A stretch of 42,155 bases of DNA from a virus: IMG/VR virus record IMGVR_UViG_3300027963_000006, positions 1 through 42,155 of that record. One strand, 5' to 3'. The notes under the pieces are model-generated. The model was not told the origin of the DNA, ran no database searches, and worked only from the letters and a program-made list of their open reading frames with translations. Shown piece by piece: positions 12,539 through 29,107 of the stretch. Position 1 is the stretch's first letter; every line of letters begins with the position of its first letter. The translations under genes were made by a program, and so were the position numbers.

Positions 12539-12949
12539 TCACACCTTGACCCAGTCGTTGCCAGATCGCTCGTACTCAACGACGTTGAGCACGCCGAGCT
12601 TCCGAGCGATCGCGCCAGTGGCAGGAGCAAACACCGCCAGAGACTTGTTGCGGTCAATTACGCCGTGAATTACCAAGGCCGCCGACAACGCAAGTGCCAT
12701 GCACGACGCCCGGTGGCGAGGATCTACAAACATCTCAAGCGTCTGCGTGTCGTTCCATACGTGTGAGCATGCCCAGCCGACAAGAGCGCCGTCCACGTGA
12801 CAGACCGCGATCGGCGTGCAGCTAGAAAGCTCGCCCTCGAGCACGCCAGAGACCTCACGCTGGAACTCGCTCTCTGGCTTTGTCAGACGCGAGCGAATGG
12901 CAAACAGATCCCGAGGCTCCAGGCCGTCAACGCTCACCACGGAAATCAT
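12539..12949 (-). CDS. GNAT-like N-acetyltransferase
   Basis: 136 residues from the ATG at 12949, which overlaps the terminase stop (ATGA). The order MISVVSVDGLEPRDL, a strand pair around IAVCHVDGALVGWACSHVWND, then TLEMFVDPRHRASCMALAL (position of the acetyl-CoA binding loop and helix) and a C-terminal ARKLGVLNVVEYERSGNDW resembles the GNAT fold. The usual Q/R-x-x-G-x-G/A loop is degenerate (RHRASCM). The substrate is unknown. An acetyltransferase between the terminase and the head joiner is unusual; it may modify a virion protein or a host target. Confidence 0.65.
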   Translation of the reverse strand: MISVVSVDGLEPRDLFAIRSRLTKPESEFQREVSGVLEGELSSCTPIAVCHVDGALVGWACSHVWNDTQTLEMFVDPRHRASCMALALSAALVIHGVIDRNKSLAVFAPATGAIARKLGVLNVVEYERSGNDWVKV

Positions 12950-15900
12950 TTGCCGAGCCTCTTGAGTTGGATGACTTTCTTTCCGCCTGGGCCGCTCGGG
13001 ATTGTCACCTTCCGACGCTGCCGGCCACCCGCCTCTGTCGCCACTGGATGCACTCCAGCAATTGACGCCGCCACGGCAGATCCAACGAGACAGTTGCCGC
13101 ACACAGCAATTTTCCCGTTACGCCGAACGATAAGAGTTCCATTCGGTACATTCGCGCAGTAGACCATTCCGTCATATTCGACACGCCGGAAGTTAGGCGT
13201 GTTTGAAGCATTGCGGAGCAGTCCCCATTTGGCGTCCGAGCGATGGACATGGTGCTGCTCAACAGTGTTTCCACCTGACACGCCACGGATCATGTAGGGC
13301 TTGGGAGGACGAATCGTCATAGAGCATCCGTACCCAAGCTTGAGGTACAGCTCAGCCATGTCCCCAGCAAGCAAAGGAGACACGGTTGCGTACGCTTCGT
13401 GATCGCGATCTCTCCAGCCGTCTCCATTGACGGCTGACTCAACAAATGCCGCTATGACGTTTGGTGATGCGTCCTTGATCCACTGCGGAACTCGTTTTGT
13501 GTATTTGTTGCCCAAGCCCGAGACGATGTCGTAAACCTGTTTGTTTGAAAACACGACCCCCGTTTTATGGGTATGGAAAGTCCACGGGAGTCTGCTGGCG
13601 ACGTGACGAATTAATTCCTGCTTTGGGCCTGCGTTCTGTGAAATGATCGTGACGTGCGTTTTTCCTCTGGCGCGTTCGTTCAATTGGCACGACCCCTCTG
13701 CCACATACCACCCAAGAAACGACGCGAGGTCAGTTGCATCAACGACAATCAAAGGGCTTCTATCTGTGGCCGGGATTGTCACTGATGAAACGCCATTGCC
13801 TTGCCACGTGCTGCGCGTCTTAATCTTGTCCCACACAGACAGGTCGCTAGCCAATTTGATTAGCGGCCCTCTGCTTTTTTGACCTTCGTGGACGACCATC
13901 CTGTGGCTTGGCGTCACGCATAAATCAATGCGATTGTGGGCCTTGCCACCTATCTGAATCATCTCGCCTTGGTAGTGCCTGGAAATCAACTTGACCGGAG
14001 GCTGGTACTCAATGCGATCTGTCGAGAGATTTACGGTAGCAAGGCAATCAGATTGGAGAACGTCAGCAAATAGTTTCCATCCTTGCTGAGTCAGCACGCT
14101 AGTCTGTGCGTCGTAGCAATCCCACCAATGATTTTCGCGCCTGTTGTCCAGCTTCCACTCGTCCACGACTCGCCCTTTTGCTTCAGTCCTCACCGGGTAC
14201 TCGCTGGTGAGATGCTCAATGAGCATATCGTGCTCACCAGCGTGGAGCGTGATCGCCTCGGGATCTCCCAGCGTCAGTCGCAGGCGAGCCGCCGCGAACG
14301 TCTTCCAGAAGTTGGTCTCGTAGACGCCATATCTCTGGTTCGTGGCCGTCTGCCGCATCACCCAGTTGAGTCCGAGCTTTTCGCCTCTGCCCTTCTTCTC
14401 GGTGAGGGAGCCGCCAGACGCACCGATACCTTTGCCGTGTGTCGGCAGCAGAGAACCCGTGAAAGTGGAACGCCGGCAGAACGTCCGCACCACCTCGGTG
14501 GACTGTCCCCAGTTGGCGTCAATGCACACCTGACGCACTCGCATAGGCACGTCGTCCTCACGCAGCCAATCCCGTCCGAGCAGGATCTGCGTCAACGACT
14601 CAAGGCCCGCCGACAACGCACCTTCAAACCCGGCGCCCTTGGACGCGAGTGCCAACGTCTTCTTGGCGTTCTTCGCCTCAAAGAACGTGCTGGCTTGGTC
14701 CGGGTAGGTGCCGTACGCCACGACGTGACCGCCGAACGACTCGCCCCACGAGGTGACAAGCCAATAGAGCAACTTGTCCTGCACGTCGATGAATGCAGTG
14801 AGCGTCTGATGCGACAGCGGCACGACGCCTCTAGGAAGCGTCAGAGCTCGAGCAACGAGCGACCGCTTGTCGAGCTTCTCTGACGAGATGTCGTCCGCAA
14901 GCGGAGCGTTCTGGTATTCCGCCATGAACGCAGACTCACCACGGTCAATCCGCAGGTTCCAAGCATGTTGGATTGCCGTGAGCTCGTCGTCGTGTTTCCG
15001 CTCCGGCCACGCTACCCGAGATCCGGCATCCATCACCGCCTGGTTGGCAACGTAGAAAGCGTCAGCAGCTGCAGTGCCTTCGCCACTGCGTTGTCCCTCG
15101 CGCCGCATCTCGGCGTACTGGCCCCAGAGCTCGTCAGCAGTCGGCCACTCGTAGACGAGCTTTGTCCGCTCTCCCTGCCACGACGGATGCCGCATCCTGT
15201 CAAGAAGCCGGTCAGCCAGGTCGTCAGGCCGGATCACCGTGATCGTTGCCAAGCCGGCAATCTTTTTGCCCGGCCCGGAGAGCCCGAGGATTGCACCTGA
15301 GAGGATGCGTTCACGGGTAGCAACCTGCGAAGGCGACGCTGACGACTCGTCAGTCTGTGGGTCGTCAATCAGACACAAGTCAGGCCGAATTGTCTTGCCG
15401 TCTGGCCTTGTGTGACTCACGCCACGGATGCGGCCCGTGATGCCGGCGACACGCACAGCGGCTCCAGCAGACGCAGCCTTGCCAATCCACGGCAGCGTCA
15501 CCTTGTCTGCCGTCCATCCCATGTGCGTAGGCTCGCCCTCGCACGTCTGGCCACGCACGCGAGCCGTGATGCCTTCCAGTGCACGCACCGGGAAGCACGC
15601 CGCCGGGAAGTCCTCGGCGAGTAGGTCGTTCTGCTCGAGGTGACTCTTGAGCGTGTCGAGCATCTGGCAGGCGATAGCCTGGTCAGAGCCGATCAACATG
15701 ACGAACGAGCGATGACCGTAGAGCATTGACCAGAGACAGGCCCAGATCGACAGCGTTGACTTTCCAGAGCCGCGAGGCATGGCAAAGGCGAAGAGCTCGC
15801 CACGCAGCACGGCGGCCTCAATCTTGGCGATGGCCGTCAGGTGGTCAGCAGACCACGCGAGTGGAAAAGACTCGGCACCGTAGACCTCGCAGAACTGGCG

Positions 15901-16071
15901 GAACGACGACCGGCAACCGTCGCGACGCTTGGCGTTCTTCACCGGCGGAATGCTGCCGATGTCGCGGCCAGCTGCACCGACCTTGCGTGACCGCTCGCCA
16001 GTCCGACGCTTAATGTCGTCGTAGCGTCGCTTGGCGGCATCCTGTCGGTCTTTTTGGTCAGAGCGAACCAA
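12946..16071 (-). CDS. terL: Terminase large subunit containing an intein
   Basis: 1041 residues with a TTG start at 16071 (no in-frame ATG upstream before a stop). ATPase: Walker A FAMPRGSGKST (about 97-106), Walker B DLCLIDDPQTDE. Nuclease (RNase H-like): first acidic motif TAFIDVQDK, second VCIDANWG, third NHWWD at 647-651. An intein (652-993) lies directly after this third Asp; the extein resumes at CLVGSAVAA (994) and ends at 1041. The spliced protein would have 699 residues. Role: pumps DNA into the head and cuts it. No small terminase is recognised next to it. Confidence 0.93.
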   Translation of the reverse strand: MVRSDQKDRQDAAKRRYDDIKRRTGERSRKVGAAGRDIGSIPPVKNAKRRDGCRSSFRQFCEVYGAESFPLAWSADHLTAIAKIEAAVLRGELFAFAMPRGSGKSTLSIWACLWSMLYGHRSFVMLIGSDQAIACQMLDTLKSHLEQNDLLAEDFPAACFPVRALEGITARVRGQTCEGEPTHMGWTADKVTLPWIGKAASAGAAVRVAGITGRIRGVSHTRPDGKTIRPDLCLIDDPQTDESSASPSQVATRERILSGAILGLSGPGKKIAGLATITVIRPDDLADRLLDRMRHPSWQGERTKLVYEWPTADELWGQYAEMRREGQRSGEGTAAADAFYVANQAVMDAGSRVAWPERKHDDELTAIQHAWNLRIDRGESAFMAEYQNAPLADDISSEKLDKRSLVARALTLPRGVVPLSHQTLTAFIDVQDKLLYWLVTSWGESFGGHVVAYGTYPDQASTFFEAKNAKKTLALASKGAGFEGALSAGLESLTQILLGRDWLREDDVPMRVRQVCIDANWGQSTEVVRTFCRRSTFTGSLLPTHGKGIGASGGSLTEKKGRGEKLGLNWVMRQTATNQRYGVYETNFWKTFAAARLRLTLGDPEAITLHAGEHDMLIEHLTSEYPVRTEAKGRVVDEWKLDNRRENHWWDCYDAQTSVLTQQGWKLFADVLQSDCLATVNLSTDRIEYQPPVKLISRHYQGEMIQIGGKAHNRIDLCVTPSHRMVVHEGQKSRGPLIKLASDLSVWDKIKTRSTWQGNGVSSVTIPATDRSPLIVVDATDLASFLGWYVAEGSCQLNERARGKTHVTIISQNAGPKQELIRHVASRLPWTFHTHKTGVVFSNKQVYDIVSGLGNKYTKRVPQWIKDASPNVIAAFVESAVNGDGWRDRDHEAYATVSPLLAGDMAELYLKLGYGCSMTIRPPKPYMIRGVSGGNTVEQHHVHRSDAKWGLLRNASNTPNFRRVEYDGMVYCANVPNGTLIVRRNGKIAVCGNCLVGSAVAASIAGVHPVATEAGGRQRRKVTIPSGPGGKKVIQLKRLGK
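13093..14118 (-). mobile_element. Intein with LAGLIDADG endonuclease in TerL
   Basis: 342 residues inside the terminase frame. Block A is CYDAQTSVLTQQGW (Cys1 nucleophile), block B is CVTPSHRMVV with the TxxH motif, block F is DGMVYCANVPNGTLIVRRNGK, and the end is VCGN followed by extein Cys. The usual penultimate His is Gly here. The middle carries two LAGLIDADG-like helices, LASFLGWYVAEGS and AAFVESAVNGDGW, so homing activity is likely. Splicing would remove it and join WWD to CLVG. The region is visibly less GC-rich than the exteins. Confidence 0.93.
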
Positions 16072-18548: not shown

Positions 18549-19664
18549 TCAGTCCTTTGCCAGAGGCATGATCACGCCAGTGTTGTCCCCACACCGCAGG
18601 ACGACAGCAGACTGGTCGTCCACGGCCTCGATCTCGACATTCGGCTCCGCGTCACCGGAGATGCCTCGCAGCCACTCAGACACGAAAGCTGGGTCAAGCT
18701 TCACGCTGCACTTCTTCCCGGCTTCCACCACCTCGCAGGTGATGCTGCTCTCGCCCTTCTCGCCGCTCTTGCCGTGCAGCCAGATGCCGTCAGCAAACCC
18801 GTACTCAACGCCTCGGCTGTCCTCGCTGGTGCAGATCGCAGCCGCTCGAGTAGCCGAGAGCAGGTCGGCCCGGCTTACCACCGTGGCCTTCGTCTCTCGC
18901 TTGGGCAGAACGTCACGCCACCGGGGAAACTTACCTTCGACAAGCAGAGCCGTCACGCGAGCCGTGCCGATCGTTGCCAGAAGCTCCTTGCCGGTGGCCT
19001 CAAGCTGCACGCCAGCGTCGCCAGCGTGATCCGCCAGCCTTGCGATGATTTCCATTGCCCGTGCTGGCACCAGCGTCTGCGAGTCGTCAACCGCCTGGTC
19101 GTGCTCGCAGGTGACAGACGCGAGCCGCCTGCCGTCCGTTGCCACAAGCGTGACAACGTCTCCAGCAACCTCAATGAGCACCGCACCAAGAGCGTACCGG
19201 CTGGACTCGTTGTCGGTGGCAAACACGACGCCACGGACAGCACGCACGAACTGATCGGCTGGCATCCGCGTAATCGGCTTGAGCGCCACGGGCTCCCACG
19301 TCGGATACTCGGCGGCATCCTCGGTTGGTAGCGTCCACGTGCCACGGCCAGACGAGATGACGCACGAGGTGCCGTCAGGCGTCAGCGTGATCTCGTCAGC
19401 CGTCACAGTTCCGAGGATTGCCTGCAGCCGGTCACGTGGCAGCAGCACCGTCAGAGTCGGGTCTGCCTCCACTTCCACGTCGATTCGGATCTCAAGGTCA
19501 CTGCCAGACAGCACCCCGCCCGAAAGGAGCACGTTCTGCAGTATTGGCCTTGGGCTTTTGCCAGGTACGGCACTGGCCACCGAGCCCAACGCTTCCTTGA
19601 GTGCCGGTGCTGATAGGCGTATGCCACCAGCTCTGGTCTTTCGTTCCTTCGTTGTTGTCGCCAT
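18549..19664 (-). CDS. dnaN: DNA polymerase III sliding clamp (beta subunit)
   Basis: 371 residues from the ATG at 19664 with the ribosome site AAAGGA upstream. Three clamp domains can be traced: the first around LKEALGSVASAVP and LSGSDLEIRIDVEVEAD, the second around RYALGAVLIEVAGDVVTLVATDGRRLASVTCE, and the third ending TGVIMPLAKD, in place of the usual YVIMPMRL. A ring of two such subunits tethers DNA polymerase to DNA. The phage has no polymerase, so this clamp presumably recruits or competes for host Pol III and other clamp-binding proteins. Confidence 0.92.
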   Translation of the reverse strand: MATTTKERKTRAGGIRLSAPALKEALGSVASAVPGKSPRPILQNVLLSGGVLSGSDLEIRIDVEVEADPTLTVLLPRDRLQAILGTVTADEITLTPDGTSCVISSGRGTWTLPTEDAAEYPTWEPVALKPITRMPADQFVRAVRGVVFATDNESSRYALGAVLIEVAGDVVTLVATDGRRLASVTCEHDQAVDDSQTLVPARAMEIIARLADHAGDAGVQLEATGKELLATIGTARVTALLVEGKFPRWRDVLPKRETKATVVSRADLLSATRAAAICTSEDSRGVEYGFADGIWLHGKSGEKGESSITCEVVEAGKKCSVKLDPAFVSEWLRGISGDAEPNVEIEAVDDQSAVVLRCGDNTGVIMPLAKD

Positions 19665-19764
19665 GTCTCGTGTCCTTTCTGAGACGGATACCAACCGAGA
19701 TGCCAGCCGCGAACGTCGCGGCGTGGAGTATTGAACCGATGCAGATGAGGGCGATGTCGTTCAC
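19498..19764 (-). CDS. Possible small membrane protein overlapping dnaN
   Basis: A GTG at 19764 overlaps the previous stop (GTGA). The first 28 residues (NDIALICIGSILHAATFAAGIS) form one good membrane helix followed by VGIRLRKDTRH, a cytoplasmic basic end. The frame then runs 167 bases into dnaN, so the C-terminal part is probably not meaningful. Small one-helix proteins of this sort are common in early phage operons. Low certainty. Confidence 0.35.
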   Translation of the reverse strand: MNDIALICIGSILHAATFAAGISVGIRLRKDTRHGDNNEGTKDQSWWHTPISTGTQGSVGLGGQCRTWQKPKANTAERAPFGRGAVWQ

Positions 19765-19952: not shown

Positions 19953-20170
19953 GCGTCACCTCCTGCTGGCTGTGAACGAATGAACTCCATCACGTCAGAC
20001 CCAAAGATGTAGACGGTGTTGCCAAACACGTGCCGCTTCAGTCCAGTGCTTAATGCGAGTGACATGTCGTCAAGACTCCATCCGAGCCTCAATGACAGTT
20101 CCAAAGCCGTGTACATGGCGTCAGAAATGACAGCACCAGGAATAAAGTTGTCAGGTGCTTTCCTGCTCAT
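19949..20170 (-). CDS. Small protein, possible DNA-binding regulator
   Basis: 73 residues starting MSRKAPDNFIPGAVISDAM. The stretch TALELSLRLGWSLDDMSLALSTGL may be a degenerate helix-turn-helix, followed by HVFGNTVYIFGSDVMEFIRS. Start has the ribosome site GGAGGTGACGC and the neighbouring LexA-like gene overlaps by ATGA. Function unknown. Confidence 0.6.
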   Translation of the reverse strand: MSRKAPDNFIPGAVISDAMYTALELSLRLGWSLDDMSLALSTGLKRHVFGNTVYIFGSDVMEFIRSQPAGGDA

Positions 20171-20406
20171 GCGTCACCTCCAATCACGCGAAGCGTCCGC
20201 GAGCAGCCTTCCTGCCACGTCACATGGCCCTTCTTGCGAAGCGGCTCAAGGTGGCACTTGGCAGCGTTAGGCGTTTTCCACCCGTAGGCGTGCTGGATCT
20301 CGCGAATCGTCGGGCTGAAGCCGTGCGTGTCGATGTAGCCGCTGATCCAGTTCTTCACGTCCGTCTGACGGGCCGTGAGCGGCTGTGGTTCTGTTGTCGT
20401 TGTCAT
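20167..20406 (-). CDS. Stand-alone LexA-type DNA-binding domain
   Basis: 79 residues. LTARQTDVKNWISGYIDTHGFSPTIREIQHAYGWKTPNAAKCHLEPLRKKGHV with the C-terminal EGCSRTLRV matches the N-terminal winged helix of LexA over its full length (residues 10-73). The peptidase domain that LexA uses for dimerisation and RecA-stimulated self-cleavage is missing. It may bind SOS boxes without being cleavable, or act as a phage repressor of different sites. Coupled to the helicase-loader-like gene (ATGA) with ribosome site GGAGGCGCAGC. Confidence 0.88.
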   Translation of the reverse strand: MTTTTEPQPLTARQTDVKNWISGYIDTHGFSPTIREIQHAYGWKTPNAAKCHLEPLRKKGHVTWQEGCSRTLRVIGGDA

Positions 20407-26347: not shown

Positions 26348-26596
26348 TCAGAACGGCAAGATGTTTCCTTCCGGCCACTGCCTGGGGTCGAGCTCGACGA
26401 TGTCGCTGGCGGTCTCAACCAGCAGCTTGCCGTTGTGGTGGTCTGTGACTCGGCCGTCCTCGTAAGACCGAGGCGACCAGTCCTTCAGCCGGAAGCTGAC
26501 GTAGTCGCCAACGGCGAACGTGTCGGCGGCTCGACGTGAGCCGTAGGTCTCGGTCATGCCAGCGATCGCACCGGCGTATTCGTTTTCGTGGGCCAT
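26348..26596 (-). CDS. Small SH3-like early protein
   Basis: 82 residues starting MAHENEYAGAIAGMTETYG. VGDYVSFRLKDWSPRSYEDGRVTDHHNGKLLVE is a likely small beta-barrel. The ATG has an AGGAGAAACGAC ribosome site and is driven by the promoters at 26624 and 26747. First gene of the main early operon. Function unknown. Confidence 0.65.
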   Translation of the reverse strand: MAHENEYAGAIAGMTETYGSRRAADTFAVGDYVSFRLKDWSPRSYEDGRVTDHHNGKLLVETASDIVELDPRQWPEGNILPF

Positions 26597-26623: not shown

Positions 26624-26651
26624 AGTGTACGCCCGTTCATCTATCAGTCAA
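26624..26651 (-). promoter_or_regulatory. Leftward promoter close to the 82-aa gene
   Basis: -35 TTGACT (complement of 26646-26651), 16-base spacer, -10 TACACT (complement of 26624-26629). It lies 28 bases before the gene start, without an operator. Confidence 0.5.
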
Positions 26652-26719: not shown

Positions 26720-26735
26720 CTAACGCCTACGTTAG
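26720..26735 (-). promoter_or_regulatory. Operator copy 4 (CTAAC-N6-GTTAG)
   Basis: CTAAC gcctac GTTAG, the inverted repeat shared with the other copies. It lies 30 bases downstream of copy 3 in the leftward direction. It has no matching -35/-10 pair of its own. Confidence 0.55.
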
Positions 26736-26746
26736 TTCTGGGCAGG

Positions 26747-26774
26747 AAGATAACGACTGCGTTAGTTCTGTCAA
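26747..26774 (-). promoter_or_regulatory. Leftward promoter with operator copy 3
   Basis: -35 TTGACA (complement 26769-26774), 16-base spacer, -10 TATCTT (complement 26747-26752). The inverted repeat TAAC-N6-GTTA (26751-26764) fills the spacer and touches the -10. It is the strongest match to a sigma-70 promoter in the control region. Its -35 overlaps the stop codon of the 47-residue gene. Confidence 0.65.
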
Positions 26775-26914
26775 CCAAGAAATCGGGAGAGCGTGGAAAC
26801 CAGCAGGTCTATGCCACTGGCGACTGCTTGAGCGATATCAGAGTCAGTGCCGAGCTCCTGGCCAAAGCGGACCAGCACGAGCGACTGAATCAGCGTGTTG
26901 ATGCGGCGTTTCAT
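26771..26914 (-). CDS. Small protein of 47 residues
   Basis: From the ATG at 26914 with a strong AAGGAGG ribosome site 8 bases upstream; stop TGA at 26771. It starts MKRRINTLIQSLVLVRFGQ and runs through an amphipathic helix (IAQAVASGIDLLVSTL). Its length and position at the start of the early operon suggest a regulator or an anti-host peptide. Function unknown. Confidence 0.6.
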   Translation of the reverse strand: MKRRINTLIQSLVLVRFGQELGTDSDIAQAVASGIDLLVSTLSRFLG

Positions 26915-26960
26915 CGCGTGGCCCTCCTTGGCCGGAAGAATCCTGTGTGCAATCGCAAGC

Positions 26961-27308
26961 CTACTTGTGCTTTTGATTGAGGCTCTTGTCGTTGCCTCTC
27001 TGGATCACGTCAATCACATACGCGACGTGACTCCTAGCGTCTTCAACGCTCATGTCGGTCTTTGTTTCGATGAAATTCTCGTAGCCGAAAATGCGTTTCC
27101 TGTGCCTGTCTACAAAATCGTTGATTGATGTTTTCATGTCGCGTAGCGGTTGCGGGTCGTCAGCCTCAATCTCAGCGTGAGTGTCGTTTTTCAGACACTC
27201 TGTGAGAAAATACAAGCAAAAATCCATAACAATTTCGTGATGTTGTCGTGGCATCATGTCGCTTGCTGTCGCAGTCGTAGTGTTCTGTCGTGGTTTTGGT
27301 TTTTTCAT
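26961..27308 (-). CDS. Early protein of unknown function
   Basis: 115 residues from the ATG at 27308 (a TTG at 27353 is less likely). Basic start MKKPKPRQNTTTATASDMMPRQ, then a helical part DFCLYFLTECLKNDTHAEIE and FVDRHRKRIFGYENFIETKTDMSVEDARSHVAYVIDVIQRG. No motif recognised. Lies between promoters that carry the shared operator. Confidence 0.65.
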   Translation of the reverse strand: MKKPKPRQNTTTATASDMMPRQHHEIVMDFCLYFLTECLKNDTHAEIEADDPQPLRDMKTSINDFVDRHRKRIFGYENFIETKTDMSVEDARSHVAYVIDVIQRGNDKSLNQKHK

Positions 27309-27340
27309 AGAGAAAAGCCTTATGTCTCGCGGTCGTGTTG

Positions 27341-27364
27341 CCCGCTGGCCCAACTGCCAGCGGG
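27341..27364 (-). terminator. Perfect 9-bp hairpin after the 87-aa gene
   Basis: CCCGCTGGC (27341-27349) and GCCAGCGGG (27356-27364) around the loop ccaact. It begins 9 bases after the stop of the upstream gene and has no U tract, so it is a possible attenuator between two early genes. Confidence 0.45.
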
Positions 27365-27373
27365 AGAAATTTG

Positions 27374-27637
27374 TCAGGCGATTCCGCAGGCGGTTTGAAT
27401 CATCCCGCGAATGGCGTCAGTTTTGTAGGACGCAATGGCCGCGTCAACCGTGGCGAACCGCTTGCCCATGCCACGCCAGGCCCGATTCATTGCGTTCTGC
27501 ACGACGACCTGAACGTAGTTGGTCGCACCACTGCAGACGACAACAAGGGCTGCATGCTTGCCGCACTGCATCTCAACGTAGAGGTACTCGTTTCCGAGAG
27601 CGTTCTGGCGGCTGGTGTCGATGACGTTGATTTCCAT
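27374..27637 (-). CDS. Early protein of unknown function, 87 residues
   Basis: From the ATG at 27637 with the ribosome site GGGAGA. MEINVIDTSRQNALGNEYLYVEMQCGKHAALVVVC then NAMNRAWRGMGKRFATVDAAIASYKTDAIRGMIQ. Possible small alpha/beta fold. First gene behind the promoter at 27687-27715, so it is controlled by the shared operator. Function unknown. Confidence 0.7.
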   Translation of the reverse strand: MEINVIDTSRQNALGNEYLYVEMQCGKHAALVVVCSGATNYVQVVVQNAMNRAWRGMGKRFATVDAAIASYKTDAIRGMIQTACGIA

Positions 27638-27686
27638 TGTTGTCTCCCGGCTCGAGGCTGCGAGTCTCACTTGCTCGCATGGCCCC

Positions 27687-27715
27687 ATACTAACCGTATC
27701 GTTAGTACGATGCAA
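27687..27715 (-). promoter_or_regulatory. Leftward promoter with operator copy 1
   Basis: -35 TTGCAT (complement 27710-27715), 17-base spacer, -10 TAGTAT (complement 27687-27692). The perfect 7-bp inverted repeat TACTAAC-N6-GTTAGTA (27688-27707) fills the spacer and overlaps the -10, as expected for repression. This drives the 87-residue gene. Confidence 0.7.
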
Positions 27716-27753
27716 GAGGCTTGAGCGATTTTTTTTAGGAATTTGCAAAACCG

Positions 27754-28008
27754 CTACTTTTTGCGGGTTTTGCGTGGCTTTGGCGTCGCTGGCTTGGCCT
27801 CACGGCGACCGACAGACCTGACCGTCAGGGTGGCCTTGAGCCCCTCGACATCCGTTTTGTGGATCAGCCAGGCTCGCTCGCCAGCCTTCCAGCCCTTGAG
27901 CCGACCGTCACCGAGCAGGAGACGCACCCAGCCCTCGGTGCAGCCTGCGGCTTTCGCCGCGTCGGACACTGTCAGCCACTCTTTGTCAGGCGATGCCACT
28001 GCAACCAT
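27754..28008 (-). CDS. MerR/excisionase-type HTH protein, candidate regulator
   Basis: 84 residues. WLTVSDAAKAAGCTEGWVRLLLGDGRLKGWKAGERAWLIHKTDVEGLK (about 11-58) is an HTH_17/MerR-type winged helix of the excisionase family. The C-terminal tail is very basic (GRREAKPATPKPRKTRKK). It is divergent from the integrase, the usual place for an excisionase or a lysis-lysogeny regulator. Its own promoter places the expected RNA start at the ATG (leaderless), and it carries the shared operator, so autoregulation is likely. Confidence 0.8.
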   Translation of the reverse strand: MVAVASPDKEWLTVSDAAKAAGCTEGWVRLLLGDGRLKGWKAGERAWLIHKTDVEGLKATLTVRSVGRREAKPATPKPRKTRKK

Positions 28009-28014
28009 GCCCCG

Positions 28015-28042
28015 ATACTAACGGCTGCGTTAGCGTAGTCAA
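28015..28042 (-). promoter_or_regulatory. Promoter of the HTH gene with operator copy 2
   Basis: -35 TTGACT (complement 28037-28042), 16-base spacer, -10 TAGTAT (complement 28015-28020). CTAAC-N6-GTTAG (28018-28033) sits in the spacer. The -10 ends 6 bases before the ATG at 28008, so transcription is expected to begin at the start codon (leaderless mRNA). Confidence 0.65.
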
Positions 28043-28189
28043 GCGTTTCAGGCCGAAAAACCGCCCAGTTGCCGCCGACCGCCTCAAGCCCTTATCGTCT
28101 ACTACTGTACGGCTCCTAAGTGGAGGATAGGGACTTGAACATATGTATACTGCCTCCAAACCCCAAACGAGATTTGAAGAGAGACTCCA
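28043..28189. other. Divergent intergenic region between HTH gene and integrase
   Basis: Contains the candidate attP core (28121-28140) and a possible integrase -10 TATACT (28146-28151) without a clear -35. The integrase ribosome site is weak (GAGAGA 5 bases before ATG). Confidence 0.45.
28121..28140. other. Candidate attP core resembling a tRNA 3' end
   Basis: On the minus strand this reads as GTTCAAGTCCCTATCCTCCA, the layout of a tRNA T-loop, T-stem and acceptor strand. It lies 50 bases before the integrase, a usual place for attP of phages that integrate in tRNA genes. The host tRNA is not in the window, so this is an inference. Confidence 0.5.
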
Positions 28190-29107
28190 ATGCTACTACG
28201 AGAAATCTACGAGAACGAGTACGCGGTGATCGCGGCCCATACGGACGAGTGCCGCAGGCAATACCGGCTGACGCTTTCACGCTGGGCCGACAAGCTTGGC
28301 ACAGATCCGACGACAGCCCACCTAGACAGCCTCACGGTGCAGCTCTACGTCGCGCACAGAAAGGCCACCGTATCGGCTGCGACTGCTCGGAAAGACAGAA
28401 ACCAGATCAGCGCCCTGTGGACATACTGCGCAAAACGTAGATACGTCGAGCAATTCCCGACGATCCCGCAGGTACGGGCGCCAGGACGCATACCGCGAGG
28501 CTACACGGTCGATGACGTGTCGGCCCTGCTGCGAGAGGCCATGAGGCGAAAACCGCCCTACAAGCCAACGCCGGTGCCTCCGCACGTCTTCATGCCGACG
28601 CTCATCCGAAACTGCTGGGAGACTGCCGAGCGAATCGGAAGCCACCTCGCCCTTCGCTGGCGTGACGTTGACACGCTCCAGCGAACGGTGATCTTCCAGG
28701 CCGAGAACAGGAAGGGGCAAACCCGCGACATCATGCGGCCGATCTCCGAGGAGCAGTGCGTCTGGCTGAACCAGATGCGTCGCCCAGACGACGAGCTCGT
28801 CTGGCCGTGGTCGGGCCACAAGTCAACGCTGTGGCATCACTTTGGAAACGTCTGCAACTGTGCTGGCGTGGTCAACCGTGGATTTCACGGGCTCCGCAAG
28901 AGTGCCGCCAGCTACGTCGCCCTAGCCGGAGGCGACGCCACGCAGCTGCTTGACCACTCAAACCCGGCAATCACCAAGAACCACTACCTTGACCAGACAA
29001 TCAACCGCCCGAGGCATACGGCGATCGACCTGCTGCCGAGGCTGGACTTGAGAGACAAGTCATTTGGCTCTCCGCCAAAAAAGCCGCCGGAAAAGCCCGA
29101 GGCGTGA
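28190..29107 (+). CDS. int: Tyrosine recombinase, integrase
   Basis: 305 residues. The core-binding domain is in the first 105 residues (RQYRLTLSRWADKLG, TARKDRNQISALWTYCAKRRYV). The catalytic domain has Arg in AERIGSHLALRWRDVD, the His-x-x-Arg block HGLRKSAASYVA, the LLDHSNPAITKNHYLD box with the nucleophile Tyr. These are the conserved R-H-R-H/W-Y residues. It should integrate the circular genome by the attP candidate beside it. The rightward direction is opposite to the rest of the genome. Confidence 0.93.
   Translation: MLLREIYENEYAVIAAHTDECRRQYRLTLSRWADKLGTDPTTAHLDSLTVQLYVAHRKATVSAATARKDRNQISALWTYCAKRRYVEQFPTIPQVRAPGRIPRGYTVDDVSALLREAMRRKPPYKPTPVPPHVFMPTLIRNCWETAERIGSHLALRWRDVDTLQRTVIFQAENRKGQTRDIMRPISEEQCVWLNQMRRPDDELVWPWSGHKSTLWHHFGNVCNCAGVVNRGFHGLRKSAASYVALAGGDATQLLDHSNPAITKNHYLDQTINRPRHTAIDLLPRLDLRDKSFGSPPKKPPEKPEA

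Follow-up and report, generated by a model that had tools for sequence, protein, structure and literature searches.

The immunity region of phage lambda contains an autoregulated repressor, CI, with operators at the early promoters; the operator is tripartite, immunity types are exchangeable, and the cI mRNA transcribed from PRM is leaderless. Among related temperate phages, co-evolution of repressor and operator has been described for the cluster A mycobacteriophages (PMC6550527), in which a two-domain repressor acts as a monomer on asymmetric sites spread across the genome (PMC6550527, PMC9283540). Apl of coliphage 186, which has a lysis-lysogeny role at the early promoters, has sites that are direct repeats one turn apart (PMC7498355), and XisF4 of the filamentous prophage Pf4 activates replication, with a separate repressor, Pf4r, present (PMC7379572). 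Here we describe the predicted lysis-lysogeny switch of an IMG/VR virus record (IMGVR_UViG_3300027963_000006; the window of this analysis is the whole record, 42,155 bases), in which an 84-amino-acid (aa) helix-turn-helix (HTH) protein of the HTH_17/excisionase family, termed HTH84 (27754-28008, minus strand), is most probably a phage immunity-type repressor with autoregulation and control of the early operon.

As in the stoperator systems of cluster A mycobacteriophages, operator specificity at this locus varies with the putative repressor and the early lytic promoter is targeted; unlike there, the regulator has only about 80 aa, and the sites are inverted repeats, number only three or four and are confined to the switch region. 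Like Apl, HTH84 is a small putative DNA-binding protein with a proposed lysis-lysogeny role at early promoters, but its sites are specific inverted repeats in three promoters, and no repeats were seen at the attachment site (att). As with XisF4, an excisionase-type protein stands at the lysis-lysogeny switch; unlike in Pf4, the switch-region genes tested yielded no separate repressor, and the geometry suggests repression. With lambda the locus would share autoregulation, operators at an early promoter, exchangeable types and a probably leaderless repressor mRNA, whereas HTH84 is without a CI-like HTH or peptidase domain, and two promoters carry a single operator and the third a pair, with no tripartite operator. 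The regulator/operator types thus appear analogous to the heteroimmunity types of lambdoid phages and cluster A mycobacteriophages. In the open-licence literature we found no account of an excisionase-family protein that serves as immunity repressor, has several specificities and uses inverted-repeat operators of this kind. Searches for HTH_17 repressors that have operators, and for repressors of planctomycete phages, gave nothing relevant; a planctomycete host was no more than a guess, which we do not put forward. The immunity logic is already known; this fold, this layout and this set of five specificities we did not find described, and it is in that sense that an earlier suggestion of an undescribed motif holds.

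The exact pattern TAAC-N6-GTTA has four matches in the window (starts at 26721, 26751, 27691 and 28019), all of them inside 26721-28032. This agrees with the first-pass annotation, made from the sequence of the window, which had reported four copies in 1.3 kb and none elsewhere. Dinucleotide shuffles gave an expectation of 0.06, with four or more copies reached in 0/100 shuffles, and control palindromes from the permuted half-site occurred 0-3 times each. By itself the pattern is not diagnostic of the switch, because a scan of 2.9 million viral contigs returned 13 matches, about the number estimated to arise by chance, and only one of these (L065) adjoins a related regulator gene.

Three of the copies are placed at minus-strand promoters. 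The HTH84 own promoter (28015-28042) consists of TTGACT (28042-28037), a spacer of 16 bp and TAGTAT (28020-28015), and its spacer holds the operator O-own, TAACGGCTGCGTTA (28019-28032; like the other operators, without strand), which overlaps the -10. The middle promoter (27687-27715; TTGCAT at 27715-27710, 17 bp, TAGTAT at 27692-27687) precedes variable accessory genes and the gene of p47, a 47-aa protein, and carries O-mid, TAACCGTATCGTTA (27691-27704), whose counterpart lies below the HTH gene in loci of each of the five regulator types. At the early promoter P1 (26747-26774; TTGACA at 26774-26769, 16 bp, TATCTT at 26752-26747) stands O-early1, TAACGACTGCGTTA (26751-26764), and 30 bp from it, downstream of the P1 -10, O-early2, TAACGCCTACGTTA (26721-26734). 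The promoters with 16-17 bp spacing and the fourth copy at 30 bp had been recognized correctly; that three copies lie exactly between -35 and -10 has to be amended, as each promoter palindrome extends into the -10, covering its first bases, and is not wholly within the spacer. The ATG of HTH84 follows its own -10 by 6 nucleotides without a Shine-Dalgarno sequence, and this arrangement (about six bases) recurs in all regulator types, which suggests that the regulator mRNA, that of HTH84 included, is probably leaderless.

On this arrangement, HTH84 would bind the inverted repeat TAACG-N4-CGTTA, probably as a dimer since the operator is an inverted repeat, at four targets: one in its own promoter (autoregulation), one in the middle promoter, which serves the accessory genes, and the pair at P1, the early lytic promoter. 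Sitting between the two hexamers (-35 and -10) of promoters with ordinary spacing, it would obstruct RNA polymerase, and the early replication/recombination operon would thereby be kept off in the lysogen. That HTH84 binds directly, forms a dimer, represses and does not activate, and acts in lysogeny and immunity is what we infer.

Among the related viral loci, 47 encode HTH84 relatives and 9 close integrases, and in the same position 17 carry a second and 4 a third type of regulator. The regulator types were labelled A (the window), B, C, D and E, the last first seen in L053. One layout recurs in about 70 related IMG/VR loci: a first operator marks the promoter of the ~80-aa HTH gene beside the integrase gene (int), another the next promoter below the regulator gene, and the early promoter before p82, the first gene of the early operon, has as a rule a pair spaced 30-31 bp apart and otherwise a single operator. 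This layout was seen in every regulator type once the strict pattern was dropped; TAAC-N6-GTTA misses the middle site in most relatives because the copy there is TAACGATAACGCTA or similar. The pattern TAACGNNGNCGYTA was found one to three times in each record whose regulator is of type A or D, mostly in the switch region, and its reversed control gave zero matches in the same records. Type A relatives have their own operator 24 bp before the HTH start and an early-promoter pair with 30-bp spacing. The early operators read TAACG(C/T)AGNCGTTA, twice, in type A; GTAACGCTANCSGTAC and GTSACG...CGRCAC in type C; TAACGCCGNCGCTA in type D; and GGTTCCGATTTAGGTA and GATTCCGATTCCGGAA in type E. A search of related phages for the motif, which had been recommended at the outset, thus finds the sites at fixed switch positions with a type-specific sequence.

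Operator type was found to follow the regulator. Over 15 distinct loci with integrases at least 60% identical to that of the window, operator distance correlated with regulator distance (Mantel r=0.874, p=0.001), and the corresponding values were r=-0.03 for integrase distance and r=0.05 for p47 distance; over 30 loci the partial correlation of operator with regulator was 0.79. Natural exchanges gave the same picture. In the pair L058/L060 the int side is identical, the HTH cassette wholly different, the following ~600 bp again identical and the early operator region different, after which the two sequences reconverge. This reads as the joint exchange of the HTH cassette and, as a separate segment, the distal operator pair; simple linkage is therefore insufficient as an explanation. 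A second exchange, between types A and C, is seen in L019/L028, which are 98.8% identical beyond the switch, and L080 combines a type D regulator with an A-like own promoter in which CGTTA became the D half-site CGCTA. As a held-out test, the pattern TTCC-N6-GGWA was written from L053 alone and applied to type E loci fetched afterwards. All three of these (L093, L094 and L095, with 55-66% identical regulators, and with integrases 31-36% identical to that of the window) have it at the own promoter (about -28), the middle promoter (+278 to +304) and the early promoter (+437, or a +1933/+1964 pair 31 bp apart). Sequence establishes that the sites exist, where they lie, that they are conserved and that they are exchanged together with the regulator; the related phages are read as carrying at least five interchangeable regulator/operator specificities. 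This covariation strongly supports the prediction that the early operon, the HTH gene and the 87-aa gene behind the middle promoter answer to one regulator, and the sites almost certainly have HTH84, not p47, as their predicted binder. Two marks of an immunity repressor were found, namely predicted operators, at the level of sequence, at both the own and the early lytic promoter, and an operator specificity that covaries with the repressor among related phages.

L095 has an extra TTCC-N6-GGWA site (~1153), about 1.9 kb before the type E gene and near a second HTH84-like open reading frame (ORF; 1738-1938), and perhaps carries two tandem regulators.

Several points weigh against HTH84 as immunity repressor. 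The own and middle operators are close enough to the regulator gene for co-inheritance by linkage, so that the co-exchange argument rests on the distal early pair, and the early replaced segment of L058/L060 takes in some of p47 as well. There is also a conserved second early promoter, P2, that lacks an HTH84 site, and repression of P1 alone might therefore not silence the early operon. The AlphaFold model of HTH84 is of low confidence (predicted local distance difference test 67), and the closest annotation of the protein is as an excisionase. Counted in favour of the repressor are the resemblance of this model to the MerR-type winged HTH, BldC and the Pukovnik Xis (VIA-align Z 6-7.7) and the assignment of the protein to an HTH family. 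HTH84 lies above the curated cut-offs of both PF12728 (HTH_17; E 1.1e-6, 29.2 bits, cut-off 27) and TIGR01764 'excise' (E 1e-7, 32.2 bits, cut-off 28.8) and also matches excisionase PHROGs; the type E regulator passes both cut-offs and type D is only sub-threshold. An HTH-profile sequence search of solved structures gave no meaningful match, no HTH84 relative was present among 50,697 phage records, in which integrase relatives were only distant (<30% identity), and a DNA-level search for the switch region in phages was without a match.

The excisionase annotations favour an alternative in which HTH84 serves chiefly as an excisionase (recombination directionality factor) and has promoter repression as a second activity, in the manner of Apl of 186 or Cox of P2, without being the repressor that maintains lysogeny. 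The HTH84 gene and int also point away from each other across the presumed attachment region, and Apl offers a dual-role precedent (PMC7498355). The Apl sites, however, are direct repeats one helical turn apart at att (PMC7498355), whereas the sites described here are inverted repeats in promoters, and no further HTH84-type sites occur near int in the window beyond the own-promoter copy. Moreover, the regulators that accompany integrases 87-100% identical to that of the window may be of type A, D or E, which does not look like an excisionase adapted to its att arms, and no alternative repressor candidate was present among the switch-region genes tested. Because similar integrases occur with regulators of three types and Apl-type sites are direct repeats, a dedicated excisionase role is less likely, and we consider this alternative improbable.

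The MerR-like fold of the model and the placement of the operators between -35 and -10 could also point to HTH84 as an activator, or a MerR-type distortion activator, of the three promoters. MerR activators work on promoters with spacers of 19-20 bp. The spacers here measure 16, 17 and 16 bp, which fits blocking, and with near-consensus hexamers the promoters should work unaided; a second operator, in addition, lies downstream of the P1 -10. Activation is thus very unlikely.

The two remaining candidates are more doubtful still. Some phages use host LexA, and genome searches did not identify the host of this phage (an integrase and HTH-alignment search of 84,980 species genomes gave no relatives), yet binding of the TAAC-N6-GTTA sites by LexA or another global repressor of the host is hardly credible, since phages that are otherwise near-identical change their operator sequence along with their own regulator, a pattern that a host protein would not create; host LexA was accordingly rejected as reader of these sites. 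Equally remote is binding by p47 or the 87-aa protein: p47 is conserved and adjoins the early operators, but operator type does not go with the relatedness of p47 between loci, several operator-bearing loci of types A and B gave no p47 homologue, and relatives have unrelated genes at the position of the 87-aa gene, so that of the two binders first put forward, the MerR-like 84-aa HTH stands and the tiny HTH (47/49 aa) falls.

A second sequence element is independent of regulator type. P2 (26624-26651, minus strand; TTGACT-16-TACACT) lies just upstream of p82 and includes a LexA-like box, TGAACGGGCGTACA (26626-26639); another, TGAACATATGTATA (28136-28149, without strand), overlaps the int -10 (TATACT, 28146-28151). 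The box, TGWAC-N4-GTAYA, overlaps the -10 of both promoters and is conserved across all regulator types and diverse integrases. It scores at least 9/10 positions in 36/39 int promoters and 25/35 p82 upstream regions, a level reached by 1.8% of random 100-mers and by no HTH promoter; as the pattern was derived from the same sites, the evidence is this control comparison and not the match itself. A candidate binder is a stand-alone LexA DNA-binding domain of 79 aa (20167-20406, minus strand; PF01726, E 2.9e-19), present in 20/25 related records. It has no sequence beyond the DNA-binding domain (a below-cut-off match to TIGR00498 covers profile positions 2-70 of 203) and so is not a full LexA with an S24 peptidase. 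Host LexA or this phage protein may read the box. Tentatively, one can imagine a lysogeny switch with two keys, common to a large group of uncultured phages, in which the excisionase-type protein would be the sole exchangeable immunity repressor (own promoter, middle promoter and P1) and the type-independent box at int and P2, read by host LexA and/or the phage LexA domain, would couple integration and induction to DNA damage; we regard this as possible rather than probable.

Leftwards from int (28190-29107, plus strand; tyrosine integrase, PF00589 E 6.1e-9, phrog_1 E 9.6e-26), which is divergent from HTH84, the minus-strand genes are HTH84, the 87-aa gene (27374-27637), a 116-130-aa ORF, p47 (26771-26914; conserved just before the early promoter, with its stop codon inside the P1 -35) and p82 (26348-26596), followed by p170, an AAA_24 ATPase, an SSB-like protein and others. 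The 87-aa gene occupies an accessory slot under the middle promoter that holds different genes in different phages, by eye a DNA methyltransferase-like gene in L056 and one for a primase-like protein in L057. The 5' leader of the middle transcript forms a predicted hairpin (27660-27678, minus strand; GCGAG, loop TGAGA, CTCGC), which is kept with its loop across types A, C, D and E; 98% of cells are paired, 24 cells changed on both sides, the covariation score was reached in 0/500 shuffles, and an Rfam search gave no match. Between HTH84 and int, a conserved stretch at 28110-28150 (CTAAGTGGAGGATAGG) resembles a tRNA 3' end and is probably part of attP; the window has no tRNA gene. Farther away on the minus strand, a 1041-aa terminase-like ORF (12946-16071) has, by eye, an intein-like insertion (DCYDAQTSVLT...VCGNC), and the ORF at 18549-19694 resembles, by eye, a phage-encoded DNA polymerase sliding clamp.

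Together, sequence analysis yielded a putative repressor with its operators, in five or more exchangeable specificities, for temperate phages for which no cultured relative was found here, and immunity groups would thus be predictable directly from metagenomes. The pair L058/L060 offers a matched natural swap for mapping the specificity residues of the excisionase/MerR-like domain, and our analysis suggests that in such phages the immunity repressors are the small proteins beside int to which the label 'excisionase' is routinely given.
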